From a virus: a DNA stretch of 39,048 nucleotides. Each line of letters starts with the position of its first letter. Positions within the stretch are counted from its first letter, which is position 1. The stretch lies in IMG/VR virus record IMGVR_UViG_3300025927_000421, positions 1 through 39,048 of that record; one strand, 5' to 3'. The position numbers were made by a program, and so were the translations under genes. Below the pieces are notes generated by a model, which was not told the DNA's origin, did not search any database, and saw nothing but the letters and a program-made list of their open reading frames with translations. Positions 3,304-39,048 of the stretch are shown here, piece by piece.

Positions 3304-4413
3304 ATGGACCTTGACGCCATCAATAGCCCCTGGGCTGTTCGCAGGGAGCTCCTGCCGACGATCGCCGCGGTGCTCACCGGCAGGCTTGCCGGAGCCGAGC
3401 AGCTTGCCACCGAGTCACCGGCGCCGGAAGCGGCCACGATCGGCGGTAACACCCTGCAGCAGAGCGTCGCCGTGATCCCGCTGCAGGGGATGATCACCCC
3501 CAAGGCTTCGATTCTGAGTCTCCTTTTCGGTGGAGGCGGAGGACTCGGCGTCTTCCGCTCGCAGCTGCGCGAAGCGATCGCGAGCGACGAAGTCGGCTCG
3601 ATCGTAATCAACGTGGACTCGCCCGGTGGGCGCCTCGACTTGGTCACCGAGACCGCGGCTGAGATCCGTGCCGCCGGCGAAGAGAAGCCGGTCATCGCTG
3701 TCGCCAACACGATGGCGGCATCGGCGGCCTACTGGCTCGCTTCGCAGGCGAACGAGCTGGTCGTCACCCCCAGCGGCCAGGTCGGGTCGGTGGGCGTCTA
3801 CTGCGTCCACGAAGACTGGAGCAGCTGGAACGAGAAATTCGGGATCGACATCTCCTACATCTTCTCCGGAGACCGCAAGGTTGACGGGAACCCCGACGAA
3901 CCGCTGAGCGACGAGGCTCGTGAGTACCTGCAGGCGCGCGTCGACTCCGGCCGCGAGCAGTTCGCCGCTGACGTCGCCAAAGGCCGCGACGTCAGCACGG
4001 CGGTCGTCAAAGGCGAGCAGTTCGGCGAAGGGCTGATGTTTAGCGCCAAGGACGCCGTCAAGCAGGGGATGGCGGACCGCGTCGAAACGCTCGAGGCGGC
4101 GATCGCCAAGCTGGCCAAGGGTGGCCGTCGCAGCTCGGCGGGATCCCGGGCAGAGGGTTTGCAGTTGACCGATCACATCTCCTCGGTCGTGACCGAGGTG
4201 GACGCCGTGATCGACCGTGTCGCTGACGTCGTGGCGAAGCGCGCGGAGAGGGGCAAGAAGCTCGGCGGCGAGTCGCAAGGCCTGCTGACCGACCTCGACG
4301 CCCGCCTACACCGGCTCAAAGGCGTTCTCGCCGCTGAGCCAACCACCGACGACAACGATGCCTCGGCGGTCGTGCAGGAGCACCTGCGCGAGATCCACCG
4401 CCGGGTGTCCTGA
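3304..4413 (+). CDS. Head maturation protease, S49/SppA type
   Basis: Prohead protease that trims the capsid precursor and scaffold during maturation, like lambda gpC. The product has 369 aa. The SppA/ClpP-like core shows NVDSPGG (103-109, the oxyanion region), the nucleophile Ser140 in MAASAAYWLAS, SGQVGSVGVY (157-166), and the general base Lys192 in GDRKVDGNP, the Ser-Lys arrangement of S49 peptidases. About 95 C-terminal residues after the protease are charged and helical and could act as scaffold or be removed; this is inference. The ATG is preceded by AAAGGAGAGG. It sits between portal and capsid as expected. Confidence 0.92.
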   Translation: MDLDAINSPWAVRRELLPTIAAVLTGRLAGAEQLATESPAPEAATIGGNTLQQSVAVIPLQGMITPKASILSLLFGGGGGLGVFRSQLREAIASDEVGSIVINVDSPGGRLDLVTETAAEIRAAGEEKPVIAVANTMAASAAYWLASQANELVVTPSGQVGSVGVYCVHEDWSSWNEKFGIDISYIFSGDRKVDGNPDEPLSDEAREYLQARVDSGREQFAADVAKGRDVSTAVVKGEQFGEGLMFSAKDAVKQGMADRVETLEAAIAKLAKGGRRSSAGSRAEGLQLTDHISSVVTEVDAVIDRVADVVAKRAERGKKLGGESQGLLTDLDARLHRLKGVLAAEPTTDDNDASAVVQEHLREIHRRVS

Positions 4414-4436
4414 AGCAAAGAAAGGCACACGGAAAA

Positions 4437-5684
4437 ATGGATAAACAGAAGCTGAAAGAGCTTCAGGGCCGCCTGGCCGAGAAACGGGCCGCGCTGAAAG
4501 AGGTCTTCGACCAGGCCGGGTCGGACTACGACATGGAGAAGGTCACCTCTCTGGAGGGAGACTCCGCCGCCAAGGTAGAGGCGATCCAGGGCATGAACGC
4601 CGAGATCGACGAGATCGCCAAAGAGCTCGAACCGATCGAGAAGGAAGCTGCGACCCTGCAGCGGGCTCACCGTGAGGCGGAGGCTTTTGTCGAGTCGCGC
4701 AGCGGCCACCCGCTGCCGCCGCGGTCCGAGGACGCCCTCGCCGCGGCTCTCACCGAGCCGACCAAAACGCTGGGGGAACTCTTCATCGAGTCCGGCGCCG
4801 GCGGTGAGTTCAAAGGCCGCGAGGTCGAGCTGGACGGCGTCGACATGAACGCCGCGCTCTTCCAAACGAGCGCCGGCTGGGCGCCGGAGGTGACCCGGAC
4901 CGGCCGGATCGTCGACAAAGCGGTGCGGCCGATCCAGGTCATCGACGTCATCCCCGGCGGGACGACGACGCAGGCGGCGGTGAAGTTCCTCGAAGAGGTC
5001 CTCTTCACCAACGCGGCCGAAGAGCGCGGCGAGGGGGAACAGTACCCCGAAGCGGCCCTCAAACTGGCGGATGCCGAAAGCCCGGTTCGCAAGATCCCGG
5101 TCTTCCTGCCTGTCACCGACGAGCAGCTCGAAGACGTCCCCCAGGCCGAGGGCTACATCAACCGGCGACTGCCGTTCATGCTGCGCCAGCGGCTCGACTC
5201 GCAGATCGTCAACGGCAACGGCGTCGGCAAAAACCTGCTCGGCTTCCTGAACAAGGAAGGCGTGCAGACGCAGGCCAAGGGGGTGGACCCGGTGCCGGAT
5301 GCGATCTTCAAGGCGATGGTGAAGGTCGAAACCCCGGGGCAGGCGATGACCGGGCCGGTGCTCATGAACCCACTCGACTGGCAGGACATCCGCCTGCTGC
5401 GGACCGCCGACGGCATCTACATCTGGGGCTCGCCCTCGGAGGCGGGGCCGGAGCGGATCTGGGGCCAGCCGGTCGTCAAAGCGCAGGTGATGCCCGAAGG
5501 CACCGCCGTGACCGGCGACTTCGCCAACTTCTCGGAACTCGCTTTCCGGAAGGGGATCACGGTGAAGGTGTCCGACTCCCACGCGGAATTCTTCCGCGAA
5601 GGGAAACAGGCCATCCGCGCCGAGATGCGCGTCGCCCTCGTCATCTACCGCCCGGGTGCCTTCTGCACCGTCACCGGGCTCTAA
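4437..5684 (+). CDS. Major capsid protein, HK97 fold
   Basis: Main shell protein. The 415-aa precursor begins with about 85 residues of charged heptad-like coiled coil (KLKELQGRLAEKRAALKE and onward), the delta/scaffolding domain of HK97-type capsids that the upstream protease should remove. The mature part follows, with family-typical stretches such as DVIPGGTTTQAAVKFLEE and PVTDEQLEDVPQ, then a C-terminal region rich in short beta strands. The start is well supported by AAAGG before ATG 4437. The gene is followed by a perfect 9-bp hairpin. The exact cleavage site cannot be seen from sequence alone. Confidence 0.93.
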   Translation: MDKQKLKELQGRLAEKRAALKEVFDQAGSDYDMEKVTSLEGDSAAKVEAIQGMNAEIDEIAKELEPIEKEAATLQRAHREAEAFVESRSGHPLPPRSEDALAAALTEPTKTLGELFIESGAGGEFKGREVELDGVDMNAALFQTSAGWAPEVTRTGRIVDKAVRPIQVIDVIPGGTTTQAAVKFLEEVLFTNAAEERGEGEQYPEAALKLADAESPVRKIPVFLPVTDEQLEDVPQAEGYINRRLPFMLRQRLDSQIVNGNGVGKNLLGFLNKEGVQTQAKGVDPVPDAIFKAMVKVETPGQAMTGPVLMNPLDWQDIRLLRTADGIYIWGSPSEAGPERIWGQPVVKAQVMPEGTAVTGDFANFSELAFRKGITVKVSDSHAEFFREGKQAIRAEMRVALVIYRPGAFCTVTGL

Positions 5685-29356: not shown

Positions 29357-30234
29357 GCATCCAGGCAGTCGGCGCAGTCCTCGACCACTCGCAAGCCGAG
29401 AAGAGCGCGCGCCTCGTCGCGATCTCTATCGCCAACCACGTCGACAAGAACGGCGTCGGCTGGCTGTCAGTGCGCCTCGCGATGGAGGAGTCGAAGATCA
29501 AGTCCAAGCAGACGGTCATCGACTCGATGAAGCAACTTCGCGACGAGCTAGGCGAGCTGGTGGTGCTCGTGCCGGCGGATGGCAGAACCCACCGTCCCGC
29601 CCTCTACTGGTTGAACCTTCCCGGCCTCAGCGGTGAGTGCGGCGATGACCACCCCTACTTCCTCGCCTACGGCCCCCGCTCGGAGATCGGCCTGACCCCG
29701 GTCCAGAAATTAGACCCGGGTCCTAGTCCAGTTTCTAGACCAACCCCGGTCCAAGATTCAGACCCCCCCGGGTCCAAAGATCAGACCCACCCCGGTCCAA
29801 TTTTCGAGGGCGGTCTATATAGGGAACCGTCCAAAAGCCAAAAAGAGAAACCCGACGATGACTCGTCGGGACCTCTCTCCAACCTCCTCGCTGATCTCGT
29901 TGCAGCCAACGATCCGAACGGCAAACGCCCCACCGTCACCAAGGCCTGGCTGAACGCCGAGCGCCTCCTGCTCGAGCGCGACGGACGCGAATACGACGTA
30001 GCCGAGCGCCTGATTCGCTGGTGCCAGAACGACGACTTCTGGCGGGCCAACGTTCGCTCGATGCCGAAATTCCGCCACCAGTACGGGACTCTCTTCCTGC
30101 AGGCGAGCAAACAGTCGATCGACCGTCGCCGGCAGAACGGCTCCGGGGCCCATCCGGCGGACGAGCGCATCCGCCAGCTCCGCGAGGGCGACGGCGAGGT
30201 CATCGATGCCGAGGCCACGGAGATCGCCGCATGA
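29353..30234 (+). CDS. Replication initiator (winged helix plus DnaD-like domain)
   Basis: A 293-aa replication protein. Residues 1-90 are a winged helix of the HTH_36 kind (KSARLVAISIANHVDKNGVG, WLSVRLAMEESKIKSKQTVI). Residues about 115-160 are a Pro/Asp-rich linker encoded by the iteron DNA. The C-terminus (TKAWLNAERLLLERDGREYD, then ERLIRWCQNDDFWRANVRSM) resembles DnaD-like/replisome-organiser tails. The layout parallels lambda O, where the origin lies inside the initiator gene. The downstream gene is loader-like, which strengthens the call. Coupled to the previous gene by ATGA. Confidence 0.8.
   Translation: MSIQAVGAVLDHSQAEKSARLVAISIANHVDKNGVGWLSVRLAMEESKIKSKQTVIDSMKQLRDELGELVVLVPADGRTHRPALYWLNLPGLSGECGDDHPYFLAYGPRSEIGLTPVQKLDPGPSPVSRPTPVQDSDPPGSKDQTHPGPIFEGGLYREPSKSQKEKPDDDSSGPLSNLLADLVAANDPNGKRPTVTKAWLNAERLLLERDGREYDVAERLIRWCQNDDFWRANVRSMPKFRHQYGTLFLQASKQSIDRRRQNGSGAHPADERIRQLREGDGEVIDAEATEIAA
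29701..29850. other. Putative replication origin: iterons plus AT-rich DNA
   Basis: Four 16-bp repeats GTCCA-N6-AGACC start at 29701, 29726, 29749 and 29772, and a partial fifth at 29795; the steps are 25, 23, 23 and 23 bp. The 6-bp centres are AT-rich. The unit is itself a weak inverted repeat (GGTC...GACC). AT-richer DNA follows at 29796-29850, including CTATATAG at 29815-29822. Since 23 is not a multiple of 3, the repeats fall in different reading frames and cannot be explained by a repeated peptide. Confidence 0.75.
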
Positions 30235-31294: not shown

Positions 31295-31725
31295 TCCCCA
31301 AGGCCGAACGATCCCTGACGAAGGCGTTCAAGAAGGGGGTAGATGCCCGCTACGTCTGGGATTCCGAGGAGACCGTCTGCTGGCTCGCCCCCCACGATCC
31401 TGAGCGCCGGCCCTGTACCCACAAGCTCGAACGTTTCCACTTCATCGGTCGCCAGCGGGTCCGCAACGCCCTCTACGCATTGCTCCCCGACTTCCCACCG
31501 GACGTCCCCGACTGGGACCTCTACGAGCTGATCCTGCTGGCCGAATGGGATTCCCGGAACGGTGCGATCGCCTGCGAGGGCCACCATCGCCGCTACGACT
31601 CCCACCTCACCCCGGCCCTGGAGGTCCCCAGCTTCGAGCTGCCCGACCACGTCCTCGAGTTCGTCGAGGACTGGGGACTTGAGGCGCAGCTGCCGGCCCC
31701 CGCCATAGAGGGAGCGGTGGGTTGA
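31291..31725 (+). CDS. HNH-like protein
   Basis: A 144-aa protein starting at the ATGA overlap. It shows RPCTHKLERFHFIGRQRVRN (His50 and Asn59) and, later, SRNGAIACEGHHRRYD (Asn90, Cys95, His98/His99). This is a pattern like the His-Asn-His arrangement of HNH nucleases, though without the usual paired CxxC ligands. It may be a degenerate HNH endonuclease or a non-catalytic relative. The neighbouring methyltransferase would suit a DNA-modification context. Confidence 0.5.
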   Translation: MIPKAERSLTKAFKKGVDARYVWDSEETVCWLAPHDPERRPCTHKLERFHFIGRQRVRNALYALLPDFPPDVPDWDLYELILLAEWDSRNGAIACEGHHRRYDSHLTPALEVPSFELPDHVLEFVEDWGLEAQLPAPAIEGAVG

Positions 31726-33371
31726 GCGGGGAGATCCACATCGGCGACTGCATCGAGGAGATGCGCAAGCTCGAGGAGAGCTCGGTCGACGCCGTGGTTA
31801 CCGATCCTCCCTACGGGATCGGCTTCATGGGGCACGAGTGGGATCAGCCTGGGGAGTTCGGCTCCGATTGCAAGGCAGGGAAGACCGCCACCTTCGCTCA
31901 GGGCCGGCCCGACCCCGGGCCACACGATGCAGGTCCTGGCGCTGCTAAGCGGCGAGCGGTCTTCCGGGAGGAGCGGGGCGAGGTCCTGGATCACACGAAG
32001 ACGCGGGAGCGCTCGGGATCAATGCAGGCGGGGCACTACGACCTCTCCCTCACCGCCAACCGCCGCTACCAAGCCTGGTGCGAGGCATGGGCACGAGAGG
32101 CGTTCCGGGTCCTGAAGCCCGGTGGCCACCTGCTCGCCTCCTGCGGATCGCGCACCTACCACCGCCTCGCCGCCGGCGTAGAGGACGCGGGGTTCGAGAT
32201 CCGCGACTCGATCATGTGGCTCTACGGCTCGGGCTTCCCCAAGTCCCTCGACGTGTCGAAGGCGATCGACAAGGCGGCGGGGGCTGAGCGAGAGGTTGTC
32301 GGCCCTCCGACTCGACACGGCGGCGGGACCAATGGCGTCTACGCCCAAGACGAGTGGACGAAGGAGAACCAGGCGACTATGGGCGCTCAGACGGCCCCCG
32401 TCACCCCCGAGGCCACCCCATGGGACGGATGGGGCACCTCTTTGAAGCCGGCCCACGAGCCGATCGTCGTCGCCCGCAAACCTCTGATCGGAACCGTCGC
32501 AGAGAACGTGCTGCAGCACGGGACCGGGGGGCTAAACATCGACGCCTGCCGGATCGAGGGCGCGCCCGACCTGCGCGGCAGGGATGCGCCGGGCAACCTG
32601 CCAAACGGCAACGGGTGCACGCACGGTGCTATGGAGCGGGCGCCCTACGAAGTTCCCGCCGGCCGCTGGCCCGCCAACGTCGTCCTCGACGAGGAGGCAG
32701 CGGCAGAGCTGGATGCGCAGAGCGGAAGACTCGTCAGCGGCCCGGAGTCGGACAAGGGCCACCGGCGCAACGCTGACGCGGACGCTCAACGCAATGCCTA
32801 CGGCGGCTTCAAGGGGCAGACCGCCACCGGAGTTTTGTACGGCGACTCCGGCGGCGCCTCCCGATTCTTCTACTGCGCCAAGACCTCACGGACTGAGAGG
32901 AACGCGGGGCTGGACCACTTCCCGGACGTGCCCGGTGGGATGCGCTCGGAAAACTCCGGGCAGCACCTGACCCGCCGAGCTGGCGACGACCCGGGTCCGA
33001 CGAAGAACGGTCACCCGACCGTCAAGCCCATCAACCTCATGCGGTGGCTGGTCCGCCTCATCACCCCGCCCGCCGGCGTCGTCCTCGACCCCTTCCTCGG
33101 CAGCGGCAGCACCGGGGCGGCGACGGTCCTCGAGGGCTTCGACTTCATCGGCATCGAGAGGGAACCGGAGTACGTCGCGATTGCCGAGGCCCGCATCTCA
33201 TTCTGGTCCCAGCACGTAGGGCGAGAAGTCGAGGAGGTCCTGGGGATCGTCGGCCGCTCCCAGCGTGAGGCCAAGGCACACGCAGATCTCGGCCAGGGAT
33301 CGCTTCTCCAGCTCCACCCCGAAGACCAACAGGAAGGGGCCATAGCTGCCCCGGAAGGAGCAGCAAAATGA
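31722..33371 (+). CDS. DNA methyltransferase, beta class (adenine-N6 or cytosine-N4)
   Basis: A 549-aa SAM-dependent methyltransferase from TTG 31722 (TTGA overlap). Motif IV comes first (TDPPYGIGF, around residue 28) and motif I/X last (HPTVKPINLMRWL and DPFLGSGSTGAA, around 460), the circular order of the beta class. DPPY fits adenine-N6 methylation. The central 250 residues (GSGFPKSLDVSKAIDK, PAHEPIVVARKPL, SRFFYCAKTSRTERN) are the usual phage-type insertion that reads the target. No cognate restriction enzyme is evident, so it is probably an orphan that protects phage DNA. The target site cannot be read from sequence. Confidence 0.9.
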   Translation: MSGEIHIGDCIEEMRKLEESSVDAVVTDPPYGIGFMGHEWDQPGEFGSDCKAGKTATFAQGRPDPGPHDAGPGAAKRRAVFREERGEVLDHTKTRERSGSMQAGHYDLSLTANRRYQAWCEAWAREAFRVLKPGGHLLASCGSRTYHRLAAGVEDAGFEIRDSIMWLYGSGFPKSLDVSKAIDKAAGAEREVVGPPTRHGGGTNGVYAQDEWTKENQATMGAQTAPVTPEATPWDGWGTSLKPAHEPIVVARKPLIGTVAENVLQHGTGGLNIDACRIEGAPDLRGRDAPGNLPNGNGCTHGAMERAPYEVPAGRWPANVVLDEEAAAELDAQSGRLVSGPESDKGHRRNADADAQRNAYGGFKGQTATGVLYGDSGGASRFFYCAKTSRTERNAGLDHFPDVPGGMRSENSGQHLTRRAGDDPGPTKNGHPTVKPINLMRWLVRLITPPAGVVLDPFLGSGSTGAATVLEGFDFIGIEREPEYVAIAEARISFWSQHVGREVEEVLGIVGRSQREAKAHADLGQGSLLQLHPEDQQEGAIAAPEGAAK

Positions 33372-33526
33372 GTAATGCAGCAACGCTGAAGCCGATTCCC
33401 GACCGCCTGGAGGTCGTCAAGGCCGACGACTTCAAGCTCCTCAGCGGATCACACCAGCCGCCGACCCCGACCGACGAAGCCCCGCAGGCCTGCGTCATGG
33501 AGGCCGAGGCCCCCGATGCCTCCTAG
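33368..33526 (+). CDS. Small protein preceding the repeat-junction gene cluster
   Basis: A 52-aa frame, ATG 33368 (ATGA overlap) to TAG 33524-33526. It reads SNAATLKPIPDRLEVVKADD, FKLLSGSHQPPTPTDE, and ends in an acidic tail. Its stop codon lies inside the first copy of the junction repeat, so its 3' end overlaps the next gene by 11 bases. No family recognised. Confidence 0.55.
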   Translation: MSNAATLKPIPDRLEVVKADDFKLLSGSHQPPTPTDEAPQACVMEAEAPDAS

Positions 33527-33535
33527 CTCTAACCC
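33516..33535 (+). repeat. Junction repeat copy 1 (with 3-bp insertion)
   Basis: ATGCCTCCTAGCTCTAACCC. It is the start of the gene at 33516 and contains the stop (TAG 33524-33526) of the gene at 33368. It matches the other three copies apart from an added CTC/TCC triplet. Confidence 0.85.
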
Positions 33536-33752
33536 GGTAAAGCAGCAGGTGGAGAACCGGTCTGCGGCGGCGCTTGCTCGCCAGATGGCTTGCGTCCTGC
33601 GTGAGAGCGAGATGGCCGAGGAGCAGCTTCTCGCTCAGGAATGGTTCGCAGCCTCCGGCCTGTGTCGCGTCTGCTGCGGGCCGCTCGAAGGTTCTCCGGG
33701 TCCAGAGTGCGCAGAGGACGGCTGCCCGAGCAGGGACGGTTCCGATGCCTAG
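33516..33752 (+). CDS. Small Cys-rich protein, first of four MPSSNP-start genes
   Basis: A 78-aa protein beginning MPPSSNP. A helical part (ENRSAAALARQMACVLRESE) precedes a Cys cluster (CRVCC at 50-54, Cys65, Cys70), probably zinc-binding. Its first 30 residues resemble those of the gene at 34428 (KQ..ENR.A...RQ), suggesting partial duplication. It ends at the TAG embedded in the second repeat copy. Function unknown. Confidence 0.55.
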   Translation: MPPSSNPVKQQVENRSAAALARQMACVLRESEMAEEQLLAQEWFAASGLCRVCCGPLEGSPGPECAEDGCPSRDGSDA

Positions 33753-33761
33753 CTCTAACCC
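33745..33761 (+). repeat. Junction repeat copy 2
   Basis: ATGCCTAGCTCTAACCC, start codon of the gene at 33745 with the upstream stop TAG at 33750-33752 inside it. Confidence 0.88.
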
Positions 33762-33972
33762 CCGAAATGAAGACTGCTCGCAGTGCGGGATGGCGAACGT
33801 CGGCAAGGAGTACCACCCGTACACGCTCTGCCTGCTGGTGAAGGCCCGGGGCGGCGACACGACCGCAGCCCGTCAAGAGCTGGCCTCGGTGCTCCAGGCC
33901 GGTCGCAGCAACGACTCCTGGCTACGTCCCCGCGTTGACGAGTTCTTGAAGGCGGTGAGCAAAGGTGCCTAG
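33745..33972 (+). CDS. Small protein with CxxC, second MPSSNP-start gene
   Basis: A 75-aa protein. After MPSSNP comes CSQCG (Cys11, Cys14) with His24 and Cys29 nearby, a candidate zinc site, and then a helical end (TTAARQELASVLQAG, DEFLKAVSK). ATG 33745 overlaps the previous stop by eight bases. It is followed by the third repeat copy at its own stop. Family unknown. Confidence 0.55.
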   Translation: MPSSNPRNEDCSQCGMANVGKEYHPYTLCLLVKARGGDTTAARQELASVLQAGRSNDSWLRPRVDEFLKAVSKGA

Positions 33973-33981
33973 CTCTAACCC
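33965..33981 (+). repeat. Junction repeat copy 3
   Basis: GTGCCTAGCTCTAACCC, identical to copy 2 except for the first base. The upstream stop TAG is at 33970-33972. Confidence 0.88.
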
Positions 33982-34435
33982 TCGCGAGGAGAACAACCGC
34001 GAGCCGACGAGAGCCGAACTCATCGATCAGTTGGGGTTTGCCGAATGGCAGGTATCGGAGTTCTGGGGGCTGATCGCCAACTCACCGCCCACGGCGCTCA
34101 ACGATGAGTTGAGGGAGAAGCTGACTGCTGTCTGCCGCGTCGGGTGGAAACGCAACGGCGACCGCGAGTTCTACGCGGTCAGCGCAGAGGCGATGAAGCG
34201 GCAGAACGAGCTTCTGATGAGGATCGAGGGAGCGCTCCAACGAGCCTCCTACCTGGTCCACATGAAGCGAGAGACGAAGCGGGGTCTTCGCCGGCGCCTC
34301 AGGAAGTCCACGCGAGCGGCCTCGCTGCTTTCTTTTGCGCTCTCCGGACTGCGCAGCCCGTCCCTCGCCTTCACCGAGGAGTGTCTGAAAGAAGCGGAAA
34401 AGCTCCTCAAAGCAGGGGAGCCGACCAATGCCTAG
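33965..34435 (+). CDS. Helical basic protein, third MPSSNP-start gene
   Basis: A 156-aa protein from GTG 33965 (the repeat copy here has GTG instead of ATG). It is largely helical with Trp-containing segments (LGFAEWQVSEFWGLIANSPP), then a very basic stretch (KRETKRGLRRRLRKSTRAAS) and an amphipathic end (FTEECLKEAEKLLKAG). The basic segment could bind nucleic acid. No family recognised. Confidence 0.58.
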   Translation: MPSSNPREENNREPTRAELIDQLGFAEWQVSEFWGLIANSPPTALNDELREKLTAVCRVGWKRNGDREFYAVSAEAMKRQNELLMRIEGALQRASYLVHMKRETKRGLRRRLRKSTRAASLLSFALSGLRSPSLAFTEECLKEAEKLLKAGEPTNA

Positions 34436-34444
34436 CTCTAACCC
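34428..34444 (+). repeat. Junction repeat copy 4
   Basis: ATGCCTAGCTCTAACCC, start of the gene at 34428, with the upstream stop TAG at 34433-34435 inside it. Confidence 0.88.
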
Positions 34445-35978
34445 CCAGGGTGGTAAGCAGTCGCGGACCGAAAACCGGCTCGCACTTGTCAAGCGCCAGC
34501 GGGAAGAAGCGATGCTTCGGGTCGGGACGCTGCGCGACCAGTTAGATGAAGCGGCCGACCGGGCAACCACGCTCGAAGAGCTCGCCTCGCTGCTGGAGCG
34601 CGACGAATCGACCGAGGTCCGCGAGAACGTCATCAGGGAGCTCAACGAGATCTCCGACACGCTGGCGAAGCTGCCGCAGCGAGGGATCAACGAGTACGAC
34701 GAGATCCAAGCCGTCCACGGCCGCGCCGAGAAAGCCGAGGCCGCTCTGGCAGACAGAGACAACCAGATCGCGGAAGCGCTGCACTGGCTGGAGGATGGCG
34801 AGACGGACAAGGCCAAGGACGCCCTCGATGACATGGAACGTGTCCCGCCGCTCGGTTGGACCCAGCCCTCCTACAACCCGCCCCAGCAGGACCGTGAGGA
34901 CGGCAGCTACTCCCGCGACGACATGCAGGAGGCGGTCGAGGTCATCGACTCGGTCTTCAAGTACCTGGAGGAGTCGGGCCTGGCAGAAGAGAGCCTGAAG
35001 CTCTACGAGGCGACCAAGCCGCTGGCGCAGGTCCGCGTACGTCTCGCTGAAGCCCTCCTTACCCAGCCCGAGGCGGACCCCGAGGTACCACGGTGCGGGA
35101 ATCGGGATCGAATCGAACGGCTGGTCAAGGGTCTGCGCCAGGTAGCGGGCGAGCGCCACGACAGGGCGGAGAACGTCTCGGTAGCGGCCCAGAACGTCCA
35201 CTACGCGGCGGACCTAATCGAGACCGCATTCCTCACCGAGCCCGACTGCCAGCCCACCCCCGAGCTACTGGGGGAGGAGGTCGCGCACGAGCTGAAATGC
35301 TGGCCGCCGTACTTCGAGGAGGTCCTGACGGGTCGCAAGCCCTTCGAGGTCCGCAAGATTGAGGACCGCTGGTTCAAAGTCGGCCAGACGATCCTGCTGC
35401 GCGAGTACGACGGGTCGCTGAAGCAGCGGGAGCCGGAGACGGACGGCTACACCGGGCGCACCTGTCTTCGCCGGATCACCTACATCCTCGGCGACGGCGA
35501 TTGGGGCATCGAGAAAGGAACCGTCGTCCTTGGCCTCGCCTCCACTCAGCCTGTTTCGGAGTCACCGGGGGACAGCGGGGTAGAGATCGACGGCGCTGTT
35601 GAGCTTCTGGCCGAACGGCTCTTTCGGTTCCACGCGATCAACACGGGCGCGATCACCCGCTGGCCGGACACCGCAGAGGGCACGAGGAACGGCTGGCGCC
35701 AGGACGCCCGCTCTCACCTCGAAGCAATTCGCCACCTGCTCACCCAGCCAGTACCAGGGAACAGCGGCGGGCTTCAGCGGTATCGAGTCGAGGCAACCTC
35801 CGATGGCCACGTCGAACTGATCGCCGACGACCAGGGCGGCCTCTGTCTCGTTGCTGATGTTGTCCGAGGGAACAGCGGCGGGGTGGAGGAGGCGTGCCAT
35901 CCGGATTGCGGCGGAGGTCCTCAGCACCAGTCGTTCTGCCCGCTCGGCGGCCATGACGACGAGGCGCTGATCTCGTGA
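34428..35978 (+). CDS. Modular protein: coiled coil, DUF3850/ASCH-like domain and TQP-linked modules
   Basis: A 516-aa protein, fourth MPSSNP-start gene. Residues 1-140 are coiled coil with a heptad-like Leu/Glu pattern. Residues 287-370 are a DUF3850 domain of the ASCH superfamily (HELKCWPPYFEEVLTGRKPF, EVRK, YTGRTCLRRITYI, GTVVLGL). Short modules on either side are separated by similar linkers: WTQP, LLTQP, LTEP, STQP, LLTQP and two GNSGG segments encoded by exact 15-bp repeats. The C-terminus has possible zinc ligands (CHPDCGG, SFCPLGG). ASCH domains are generally linked to RNA binding. I cannot assign a cellular role to the fusion. Confidence 0.68.
   Translation: MPSSNPQGGKQSRTENRLALVKRQREEAMLRVGTLRDQLDEAADRATTLEELASLLERDESTEVRENVIRELNEISDTLAKLPQRGINEYDEIQAVHGRAEKAEAALADRDNQIAEALHWLEDGETDKAKDALDDMERVPPLGWTQPSYNPPQQDREDGSYSRDDMQEAVEVIDSVFKYLEESGLAEESLKLYEATKPLAQVRVRLAEALLTQPEADPEVPRCGNRDRIERLVKGLRQVAGERHDRAENVSVAAQNVHYAADLIETAFLTEPDCQPTPELLGEEVAHELKCWPPYFEEVLTGRKPFEVRKIEDRWFKVGQTILLREYDGSLKQREPETDGYTGRTCLRRITYILGDGDWGIEKGTVVLGLASTQPVSESPGDSGVEIDGAVELLAERLFRFHAINTGAITRWPDTAEGTRNGWRQDARSHLEAIRHLLTQPVPGNSGGLQRYRVEATSDGHVELIADDQGGLCLVADVVRGNSGGVEEACHPDCGGGPQHQSFCPLGGHDDEALIS
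35757..35882 (+). repeat. Two exact 15-bp linker repeats
   Basis: GGGAACAGCGGCGGG occurs at 35757-35771 and 35868-35882, both in the frame that encodes GNSGG. A related pair, GCCTCCACTCAGCCT (35538-35552) and GCCTCTACTCAGCCT (36149-36163), encodes ASTQP in this gene and in the next one. Confidence 0.8.
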
Positions 35979-36574
35979 CCCGCGAGCTGAACCGCGAGAC
36001 CCTGGACCGACTCGCTATCCACGGCGGCGGCAGCGTCACCCTCGGCTGCGCTGACCACGATGACGGCACGAACGCCATCTACCAAGACGGCGTCGTCCGC
36101 GTGCTTTGCCGCACTTGCGGGTTCGAGGGCGCGCGAGTCAAAGCCGCCGCCTCTACTCAGCCTCCCTCACCACAGGCCGAGGTACAGGACGGGAAGCGGC
36201 CGAGCGATCTCGACTGGAACGCCACGTCAGGAGCCGTCTTCACCAACGGCGAGCTTTGGGAGCTACGCGCCTTTGCCCTCCAAGCAGGCGCCGACAAGAT
36301 CTCGAAGGGGTCCTTCGCTCGCAGGGCGCTCGACCGCCTGAACTTCGTCCTGGGCGCAACCGGCACCGGCAAGCAGCCCCCGGCCGAGCCACAGGGTGAC
36401 GTGGTGGAGGGCGATCTGGTCGAGCGGATCGCGCGGCAGATCTACGGCTCGGGTTGGTGCGAATCCACCTGGCCCGAAGCACACGAGAAGGTCCAGCATC
36501 GCTACCGAGATCTAGCCCGCAAGCTCATCGCCGAATCCCGTTCCTCCCTCGCCCAGCAGGAGAAGGCCGAATGA
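35975..36574 (+). CDS. Zinc-binding early protein, paralogue of the gene at 27581
   Basis: A 199-aa protein from GTG 35975 (GTGA overlap). The N-terminal 55 residues hold RETLDRLAIHGGGSVTLGC with Cys25/His28 and VLCRTCGFE with Cys45/Cys48, the same zinc arrangement as the protein at 27581. An ASTQP linker, like those in the upstream modular protein, then joins two helical parts (LWELRAFALQAGADKISKGS and LVERIARQIYGSGW, ending in HRYRDLARKLIAES). So this gene shares pieces with two others in the operon. Function unknown. Confidence 0.62.
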   Translation: MTRELNRETLDRLAIHGGGSVTLGCADHDDGTNAIYQDGVVRVLCRTCGFEGARVKAAASTQPPSPQAEVQDGKRPSDLDWNATSGAVFTNGELWELRAFALQAGADKISKGSFARRALDRLNFVLGATGTGKQPPAEPQGDVVEGDLVERIARQIYGSGWCESTWPEAHEKVQHRYRDLARKLIAESRSSLAQQEKAE

Positions 36575-37131
36575 GCCCGCGTCGAAGCGAAACCGACCGG
36601 GTGAACGCGTGGCGCAAGCGGCATCCAGAGAAATTGGCCGCACAGCTAGCCGTCAGGTCGGCCATAGAAAAGAAGCAGATGGTCAAGCCGCGGATCTGCG
36701 ATCGGTGCTGGGTCGAATACCGATCTCGTGGCGAGCTTCAGGCCCATCACCGCGATTACTCGAAGCCCCTTCAGATCGTCTGGCTCTGTCGGGCCTGCCA
36801 CCTCGAAGCTCATGGCAGGGATGGTTCTGCCCTCCGCGCTCGCTCGGCGAAGGCCGCGCCGCCGACCGTTTGCCAAGTGGAGACGATGCGCGTCATCGCA
36901 TCCTTCGACGGCCCCGTAGCGACGAAGAGGCTGCAGGAGGTGCTGGTGGATGGTCCCGCTCGAATCCGATCCCATCAGGGTCTGTGGGCCCGCCTTAACC
37001 GGCTAGCGGAGGACGGCTATGTCCACAAGGACGCTCGCAGGGGAACTGCCGGCATCGCTCGCTGGAGCCTCACTTCCAAAGGTTGGACCGCCATCCCCGC
37101 CCCCTCGGAACCGGAGGAGGGGAGCAAGTGA
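36571..37131 (+). CDS. HNH-type zinc domain fused to a winged helix
   Basis: A 186-aa protein from ATG 36571 (ATGA overlap). Residues 1-40 are basic helical. Residues 43-81 are an HNH-like zinc domain: CDRC (43-46), LQAHHRDY (His59/His60, Asp62), LCRACHLEAH (Cys73, Cys76, His77, His81), the C2/H-H/C2-H layout of many phage HNH nucleases. Residues about 105-180 look like a winged helix (MRVIASFDGPVATKRLQEVL, GLWARLNRLAEDGYV, ARWSLTSKGW). It could be a sequence-targeted nuclease or a regulator derived from one. Catalytic activity cannot be decided by eye. Confidence 0.68.
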   Translation: MSPRRSETDRVNAWRKRHPEKLAAQLAVRSAIEKKQMVKPRICDRCWVEYRSRGELQAHHRDYSKPLQIVWLCRACHLEAHGRDGSALRARSAKAAPPTVCQVETMRVIASFDGPVATKRLQEVLVDGPARIRSHQGLWARLNRLAEDGYVHKDARRGTAGIARWSLTSKGWTAIPAPSEPEEGSK

Positions 37132-37454
37132 ACGGCGACGAGGAGACGCCCTTGTTCCGCGACCGCGACGGCTCGATTTTGCTGATGCGCCTGCCGGGTG
37201 ATGCCTGGACGGTCTGCAAATGCCAGTCGGACGCGGATTGGATCCGCGCCACCGAATGCAGCGGCGCGCTCACCGGGCTCACCAAGGACGGCGTCAGCTT
37301 CTTGCCGGTCGTCCCCCTCAGCGAGGTAAAGGAGGCGCTGCTGGAGGCTGCGGCAGATCGTCAGGACGTGGGGCTCTCGCGCACCGTTGGTGAACTGCTC
37401 GACGCCGCCTTCCCGGCACACACCGAGGAGAAAGGAGAGGGACGTGCGGGTTGA
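37128..37454 (+). CDS. Small early protein, unknown
   Basis: A 108-aa protein from GTG 37128, with a strong GGAGGAGGGGAG just before it. It contains RDGSILLMRLPGDAWTVCKC, a beta-type segment, SDADWIRATECSG and helices (SEVKEALLEAAADRQDV, VGELLDAAF). No family recognised. It is the last well-supported rightward gene. Confidence 0.6.
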   Translation: MNGDEETPLFRDRDGSILLMRLPGDAWTVCKCQSDADWIRATECSGALTGLTKDGVSFLPVVPLSEVKEALLEAAADRQDVGLSRTVGELLDAAFPAHTEEKGEGRAG

Positions 37455-37719
37455 GCAGCTCGAGCCTGGGCCAACCGCCCTTCGCAAGGGGATCGACTCC
37501 CTGCTCTGCGGCGAACGCGCTCGCCAAGGGGGGCGGTGGAAGCTGCTTTCACCACCGGATCGGCTCGAAGACCTTGCGGTTGTGGGTGTTCCTACCGGGG
37601 ACGTCGATGACGCGGGTGTCATCGCTCCAGATGACGAGCACGCGATCGGCAACCGCAGCACCCCGGGGCTGCCGGCGAACAAAGACGTGTCGAATCGTCC
37701 CCACCAGGAGATCGCGTAG
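37444..37719 (+). CDS. Possible last early gene running antisense into integrase
   Basis: A 91-aa frame from GTG 37444 with AAAGGAGAGG at 37429-37438, so its start is well formed. The first 35 codons (RVEQLEPGPTALRKGIDSLL) look like real protein. The remaining 56 lie antisense to the 3' end of the integrase gene and look like a shadow. It may be a short gene that lost its end by recombination, or a genuine overlap. No function assigned. Confidence 0.35.
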   Translation: MRVEQLEPGPTALRKGIDSLLCGERARQGGRWKLLSPPDRLEDLAVVGVPTGDVDDAGVIAPDDEHAIGNRSTPGLPANKDVSNRPHQEIA

Positions 37720-39048
37720 CCCGTGCCTGTCGAGATCGTCCACCGAGACCTTCAGCACCTCTCGGGTCCGCAGTCGAGCCAGCGCGGCGTCCCGGGCTGG
37801 CAGCTTCGCTTCTCGTGCCTCCACTCGCAGTCGCAGTCCCTCCTGCCAACTCTCCTCGCCCATGAGCTGGCGGGCGCCGGTGTCGGCCAGAAAGACATCG
37901 ACCTCACGGGCGGCTGCCTCGAATGCCTCGACGTCGACCAGATCAGCCTCGTCGTCGTCGGCCTGGCCGATCAGAAGCCCACGTTGGTAGCCCTCGACCA
38001 GCTCCTTGATGTGCCCCTCGACCAGCTCTGCCGTGATCACGCTCGGTTCAGGGCAATTACGGCTGGCGCCGCTGTAGCAGCGATAGACCGGAGTGGCGCC
38101 GGTACCGCCGTAGCTCTGGCCCCCCATGCTGTAGCGGCAGCCGGCGCACCGGATCAACCCGCGGAGAAGGAAAGGGCTGTCAGCGACCATTTGTTCACCA
38201 GGCTCTCGCTGGCAGGCCTCCCAGATGTCCTCATCCGTGAGGGCCTTATGTGCATCTGCATTGACCAAGCCGCCGTGCTTCACCTCTCCGAGGTAGACGC
38301 GATTCTTGAACCAGCGGCGAACTTCAGTCTGGGTCCACGCGGCACCTCCACCTTCGCGCGGCGCCTCCACCGAGAACCACCGAGCCACAGCTGCATCGGT
38401 ATATCGACCGCTCGCGCCCTTCTCGAAGGCCTCCGTCATGGCCGGCCCGTAGACGGGACTGGGGACGAGAACGCCTGGGATCGTGCTTTCACCAAGAGCA
38501 GCGGCATCCACCGGGGAGATGTGGGTGGGCTTGCTCGGGAGCGCATCGATCTTCAGGTAGCCGTTGGGCGTAGGGCCGATGTGTTTGCCGACAGCGATCG
38601 CCCGGGCCTTGGCGACCGTCCAGCTCTCCTTGATCTGGTCGAGGAAGTACTCGGCGTTGGAGAGGAACTGCCGCAGCATGTAGCGGCCCTCTTTGGTTTT
38701 CGGGTCGATCCGCTCGTGGCAGGAAGCGAAGATCTGGTCTCGATCGAGGATCTCCTTGACGATCGCCAGCCCGTCAGCGGTCGAGCGGGAGAAGCGGTCG
38801 ATCTTCATGACGACGATGCCGTCGACCTTGTGGCGCACCAAGAGGGCCAACATCTCCTGGAACGCAGGGCGAGCAGTGTTCCCGCCGCTGAAGTCCTGGT
38901 CGTCGTACCAGGCAACGATCTCGCCGCCCAGTTCTCGGGCGTACTGTTCGATCGCTTCTCGTTGAACCGAAGGGGAGATGTAGCCTTCCCCTTCTCGGCC
39001 GCCGATGGCGCTGACGCGGATGTAACCAACCAGCCGAAGAAGGGGCAC
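37549..39048 (-). CDS. Large serine integrase (site-specific recombinase)
   Basis: Catalyses phage integration at att sites. The 499 visible residues begin at the window edge with GTG (complement of 39046-39048), so a slightly earlier start is possible. Residues 1-150 are the resolvase catalytic domain with Ser13 (GYIRVSA), the YDDQDFSGGNTARPAF region and MKIDRFSRS (Asp84, Arg85, Arg89). Residues about 160-280 form the recombinase domain, and about 295-335 a zinc ribbon with Cys301, Cys304, Cys324 and Cys332. The rest is a coiled-coil region that usually controls direction. It is convergent to the early operon. No tyrosine integrase is present. Confidence 0.93.
   Translation of the reverse strand: MPLLRLVGYIRVSAIGGREGEGYISPSVQREAIEQYARELGGEIVAWYDDQDFSGGNTARPAFQEMLALLVRHKVDGIVVMKIDRFSRSTADGLAIVKEILDRDQIFASCHERIDPKTKEGRYMLRQFLSNAEYFLDQIKESWTVAKARAIAVGKHIGPTPNGYLKIDALPSKPTHISPVDAAALGESTIPGVLVPSPVYGPAMTEAFEKGASGRYTDAAVARWFSVEAPREGGGAAWTQTEVRRWFKNRVYLGEVKHGGLVNADAHKALTDEDIWEACQREPGEQMVADSPFLLRGLIRCAGCRYSMGGQSYGGTGATPVYRCYSGASRNCPEPSVITAELVEGHIKELVEGYQRGLLIGQADDDEADLVDVEAFEAAAREVDVFLADTGARQLMGEESWQEGLRLRVEAREAKLPARDAALARLRTREVLKVSVDDLDRHGLRDLLVGTIRHVFVRRQPRGAAVADRVLVIWSDDTRVIDVPGRNTHNRKVFEPIRW

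Follow-up and report, generated by a model that had tools for sequence, protein, structure and literature searches.

The window, i.e. the whole stretch of 39,048 nucleotides analysed here (an IMG/VR virus record, IMGVR_UViG_3300025927_000421), contains a 17-bp element at four consecutive gene starts on the plus strand, as had been reported in a preliminary description made from the sequence. The element, RTGCCTAGCTCTAACCC, occurs exactly at 33745-33761, 33965-33981 and 34428-34444, and a fourth copy carrying three extra bases, ATGCCTCCTAGCTCTAACCC, starts at 33516. Every copy supplies the start codon of one gene (ATG at 33516, 33745 and 34428, GTG at 33965) together with the TAG stop codon of the preceding gene, which falls in the first 8-11 bases of the following gene. 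Open frames at 33368-33526, 33516-33752, 33965-34435 and 34428-35978 match this start/stop layout; the frame that ends at 33972 stays open upstream as far as a TTG at 33574, which makes 33745 its presumed start. The spacings between the copies are 226, 220 and 463, all 1 mod 3, as is required by the stop-in-start layout. In dinucleotide shuffles, a mean of 0.06 matches to the element was obtained and the number of four was never reached. The genes enclosed by the copies, cassette gene 1 (33516-33752, 78 aa), cassette gene 2 (33745-33972, 75 aa, counted from the presumed start) and cassette gene 3 (33965-34435, 156 aa), are without Pfam or PHROG match and are unrelated, in agreement with the earlier remark that the proteins following the element mostly differ.

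Beyond what had been described beforehand, the element is also present in relatives and is one of many such linkers, which together form an array. Using DNA-pattern scans and one protein search, eight further records with this array were recovered, of which six remain after dropping two duplicate pairs: G001 (= G002), G003, G004, G005, G006 and G008 (= G009). Together with the window these constitute seven distinct uncultured soil phages, all of them metagenomic contigs and some possibly from related samples. Absence of the copies from relatives, which the preliminary description would have taken to indicate a chance duplication, was not observed, as the element is found there beside different genes. 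A recent, functionless tandem duplication in this one phage, to which the occurrence of four copies within 1 kb could be ascribed, is already contradicted by the presence of the same site with other genes in G001, G002 and G003; moreover, the exact repeat unit, the only part that is duplicated, is just 14-17 bp long and the genes between the copies are unrelated, which makes this explanation hardly credible. Among isolate phages (INPHARED), array DNA was unmatched and the tested array proteins were unmatched except via a DUF3850 domain, which is also the one cassette that a further record, G007, has in common with the array carriers. One genome scan for hosts with an 18-bp linker returned only matches without other linkers, judged to be due to chance, and most of the 79 viral matches to a 14-mer were chance occurrences in unrelated contigs. 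The integrase types differ among the carriers, the window possessing a serine-type large frame (37549-39048) and G008 a tyrosine-type phrog_1 integrase (L125, 15811-16974), and given this difference the array appears to cross phage backbones. G008 starts and ends with identical ~86 bp (L124, 1-86, and the end of L126), so that its genome may be complete, being either circular or terminally redundant.

Clustering of short matches across the seven genomes yielded about 20 linkers present in at least four genomes and further ones present in two or three. The linkers are 24-50 bp long and their order is kept in the seven phages, with mostly unrelated coding DNA in between. When the window is compared to G001 (49 kb), all blastn matches (1e-4) fall within 33503-37446 of the window and are collinear, forming islands of 27-50 bp with the sole exception of one of 146 bp that covers linkers M and N, and comparing the translations reveals hardly any further similarity beyond the array. 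The edges of the linkers are sharp, background identity being reached within a few codons. We consider it likely, judging from these sequence comparisons, that a cassette array spans about 31.7-37.4 kb of the window and that the 17-bp element is the core of one of its ports, the term used here for such a conserved DNA joint (the SSNP port). That the contigs are chimeric and the array is an assembly artefact could be suspected since every carrier is metagenomic, but separate records agree at 100% (G001 and G002 over 31,988 bp, G008 and G009 over ~37.8 kb) and the frames are kept through the joints, so that the probability of such an artefact is close to negligible.

At least nine ports, SSNP, E, F, H, I, J, K, L and O, occur both intact and split across the genomes, a split port consisting of two half-units with a common core of 11-19 bp (15 measured cases) and a cassette between them. 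The SSNP port is empty in G003, where a single copy is present, holds one cassette in G001, which has two copies, and three in the window with its four. Its conservation spans 33-40 bp and extends past the start and stop codons. Copy 1 of the window, consisting of the constant left flank and the core (33503-33535), has a 33-bp identity to copy 1 of G001, and the same left flank heads the single G003 copy; copy 4, consisting of the core and the constant right flank CCAGGGTGGTAAGCAG (34428-34460), has a 31-bp identity to copy 2 of G001 and one of 30 bp to the single G003 copy. The outer flanks are thus constant irrespective of the number of cassettes, the single copy of G003 agreeing at 7/9 positions with the left flank of the first copies in the window and G001 and at 16/17 and 17/17 with the right flank of their last copies. 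In the array region, 11 exact direct repeats of at least 13 bp were counted per 6 kb, compared to 1-4 elsewhere in the window.

Some linkers, among which SSNP, A and L, are situated at gene junctions with start and stop codons, and others inside frames of 500-890 aa; E to K lie inside open frames in most genomes, and the intra-gene linkers read as TQP-type peptides. On the plus strand of the window, linker A (31694-31717) covers a gene end just before a DNA methyltransferase gene and shows a 24-bp identity to G001, where different genes follow, and a 22-bp identity to G003. The last SSNP copy opens a 516-aa frame (34428-35978; GC 0.82 at the third codon position versus 0.43 at the second) in which several cassettes are joined in frame by linkers E to I. 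These are linker E (TQPSYNPPQQDREDG, 34860-34903), intact in the window and split in G001; linker F (TQPEADPEVPRCG, 35053-35099), intact in the window and split in G001 and G003; linker G (DCQPTPELLGEE, 35241-35279), present in six genomes; linker H (STQPVSESPGDSG, 35535-35580), intact in the window and split in G008; and linker I, which is split in the window into a left copy (TQPVPGNSGG, 35739-35771) and a right copy (GNSGGVEE, 35862-35892) with a core spacing of 111 bp and is intact in G004 and G005. Downstream follow linker J (STQPPSPQAEVQD, 36143-36192), found in seven genomes, intact in the window and split in G008; linker K (GKQPPAEPQGDVVE, 36362-36410), intact in the window and split in G001, G003 and G008; linker L (37095-37132), a gene end plus the next start, found in six genomes and split in G008; and linkers M (VVPLSEVKEALLE, 37304-37371) and N (37411-37446), each in six genomes. 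In all seven genomes, coding-strand copies of the heptamer ACCCAGC reach a density in the arrays that is about 2 to 20 times that of the remaining sequence; many linkers contain this heptamer, where it encodes Thr-Gln. Other repeats were noted as well: G003 and G004 have in common a long tandem run with a 6-bp period, situated close to the array or upstream of it (L107 reversed, ~3745-4440), and at 29695-29805 of the window there are imperfect tandem repeats of the AGACCCACCCCGGTCCAA type, with a 23-bp unit in three to four copies.

The spacing between the two cores of a split port follows a frame rule, being 0 mod 3 at every measured intra-gene port, whereas the four SSNP cases and the gene-junction port L show 1 mod 3. 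The start-type ports of G004, G005 and G006 likewise carry the upstream stop. The overlap of a stop with the next start in every SSNP copy, together with these other start-type ports, would agree with a translational-coupling or start-associated signal in which the overlap sets reinitiation, one of the options of the preliminary description. However, many linkers lie inside open frames without start or stop, which coupling cannot explain, the conservation of 33-40 bp exceeds the start and stop codons, folding of the element as RNA is not unusual (z -0.4 to 1.7) and no Rfam family was matched. As an explanation of the linkers we therefore regard such a signal as unlikely, coupling being a plausible by-product of the port sequence.

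To compare linkers free of the choice by which they had been defined, namely their conservation, G001 and G008 were left out when a set of linkers was defined, and this set was then compared between the two, the only test of that kind. Linker identity was 94.7% over 437 bases (15 entries, some overlapping), whereas the larger shared core-gene alignments of G001 and G008 are 68-81% identical. Conservation at the peptide level, with a multi-domain protein requiring the TQP-type linkers for cleavage or as flexible connections, is suggested by the (T)QP pattern and Pro-rich peptides in many intra-gene linkers and by the frame always being kept. Nevertheless, the single-base codon changes in the intra-gene linkers E to K, some of them at linker edges, comprise 9 synonymous and 23 other changes, and this share of 9/32 equals the neutral expectation of 0.28 and is far below the 0.75 taken as typical of protein constraint. 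As there is no synonymous excess, peptide function does not explain the conservation of the linkers. Moreover, the codons CTA CTG are identical in all carriers of linker G and the gene-junction linkers are conserved likewise, so that the peptide explanation is very unlikely. The linkers would then be kept alike either by selection on the DNA or by exchange between phages.

When 107 segments lying between linkers were compared across genomes, each of the top nine matches paired segments from one and the same port, and 42 of the 74 matches are at a common port although only 372 of the 4846 pairs have a common port; a few weaker matches cross ports. Where recognised, the cassettes are ordinary phage genes, including phrog_419 (function unknown) in G001, a DUF3850 (ASCH-like) cassette between linkers G and H (35283-35537, plus strand, Pfam 2.8e-21) and an HNH-endonuclease-like gene between linkers K and L (36571-37131, plus strand, phrog_2340, 6.6e-17), which, situated inside the array, might stimulate cassette exchange. 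The DUF3850 cassette is also found in G005 (91% identity) and, with other flanks, in G007 (81.5%). In G007 it is part of a 589-aa frame (L120, 17251-19017) and flanked by an 18-bp direct repeat, GGAGAGAAGCCCTCCTTC, with a spacing of 306 bp, which is 0 mod 3, and the preceding frame contains a second repeat of 17 bp, CCCCGACTGCAAGCCCC, with a spacing of 180 bp. The G007 repeats are perhaps a second, unrelated set of ports. Matches to GGAGAGAAGCCCTCCTTC in other viruses proved to be unrelated sites.

Taken together, the linkers probably act as anchors of homology at which cassettes are exchanged by recombination, and would be an extreme form of the boundary sequences of lambdoid phages. A port of 24-50 bp would be long enough for general homologous or annealing recombination, minimal pairing lengths being 31-34 bp for RecA and 23-27 for Red-beta (PMC3945230). 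When two related phages are present in one cell, recombination between matching ports would swap the cassettes, and a cassette may also come to sit within a port, between direct repeats of the 11-19 bp core, the intact form presumably preceding the split one. At gene-junction ports, where start and stop overlap, a cassette with a length of 1 mod 3 would constitute a complete gene and, because of this overlap, its coupled translation is likely; intra-gene ports would be read through in frame, rendering their cassettes exchangeable protein segments. Alternatively, a mobile element or site-specific recombinase might insert the cassettes and duplicate its target in an integron- or transposon-like way, in agreement with the direct repeats flanking the cassettes, the HNH gene in the array and the integrase in the window, but the variable length of these repeats, the own sequence of each port and the difference in integrase type between the window and G008 make this quite unlikely. 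Port-specific sequences, a fixed order, a variable core length and a near-minimal pairing length fit general recombination better than a site-specific enzyme. As for the enzymes of such homologous exchange, a phrog_69 exonuclease (a phage DNA-metabolism family) is encoded by G001 and G008 and a related one by G006, G004 encodes an ERF protein and G008 a RusA resolvase; RecT and YqaJ families were not found in the genomes searched, nor was any recombinase recognised in the window, the record of which is possibly incomplete, and host enzymes could serve the exchange. No recent swap was seen in the near-identical pairs G001/G002 and G008/G009. A further-reaching proposal, possible but in our opinion doubtful, is that phages maintain a dedicated multi-port array for cassette capture, with joints selected as recombination anchors and a core duplication by which foreign genes or domains could be inserted, exchanged or excised with automatic restoration of start, stop and frame, resulting in ever-changing multi-domain early proteins.

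For decades it has been debated whether the mosaicism of phage genomes arises mainly by random illegitimate joining followed by selection or by recombination at conserved joints, and in published accounts most mosaic boundaries are without conserved sequence (PMC3029335, PMC3233612). In the array, conserved joints are plainly visible and numerous; they are collinear, keep the frame and extend down to protein segments, which makes the conserved-joint model directly testable. The array shows with unusual clarity how phages could exchange parts with reading frames unbroken, suggests a route to the rapid building of new multi-domain phage proteins, and provides a signature by which further cases can be searched for, i.e. 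short collinear identical islands between unrelated coding DNA.

In integrons, gene cassettes are arranged serially with short recombination sites between them. The array likewise consists of serial cassettes parted by short putative recombination sites; unlike in integrons, there is no common type of site, each port having its own sequence and the order being fixed by these port-specific sequences. In contrast to the target duplications of transposon insertion, the repeats have no fixed length. The process would be of the same kind as the relaxed homologous recombination by Rad52-like phage recombinases, whose minimal pairing length fits the linkers, but the studies on these recombinases concern diverged flanks of hundreds of bases, compared to dedicated short joints here (PMC3945230, PMC2327257). 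The Start-Associated Sequences of cluster K mycobacteriophages resemble the SSNP element in being short asymmetric repeats at several gene starts, beside different gene families and sometimes with an upstream stop; they are, however, 13 bp long (GGGATAGGAGCCC) and located at the ribosome-binding position, whereas the SSNP element has the start codon at its very beginning and extends into the coding sequence (PMC3203893). The consensus GGGATAGGAGCCC is absent from the window, with one match at two mismatches versus 1.6 expected by chance. From the three options of the preliminary description, a repressor or start-associated site of the mycobacteriophage type is thus not supported, as sequence and position differ, and the recombination boundary for swapping whole genes is the one that finds support; the boundaries reach further than proposed, into single open frames. 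The statement that no such element had been described was too strong, short conserved boundaries between phage modules having been proposed since 1978. These boundary or linker sequences of lambdoid phages (Susskind and Botstein 1978; Clark et al. 2001, for HK620; both as cited in PMC3233612 and PMC3029335) are, according to the citing papers, short sequences at module edges that are common to different phages while the modules between them differ, as was found here, and they have been explained by homologous recombination, the explanation that we propose for the linkers as well. What differs from the lambdoid boundaries as portrayed in those papers is the number of about 20 linkers in one array, the position of many of them inside genes, the intact and split forms and the frame rule.
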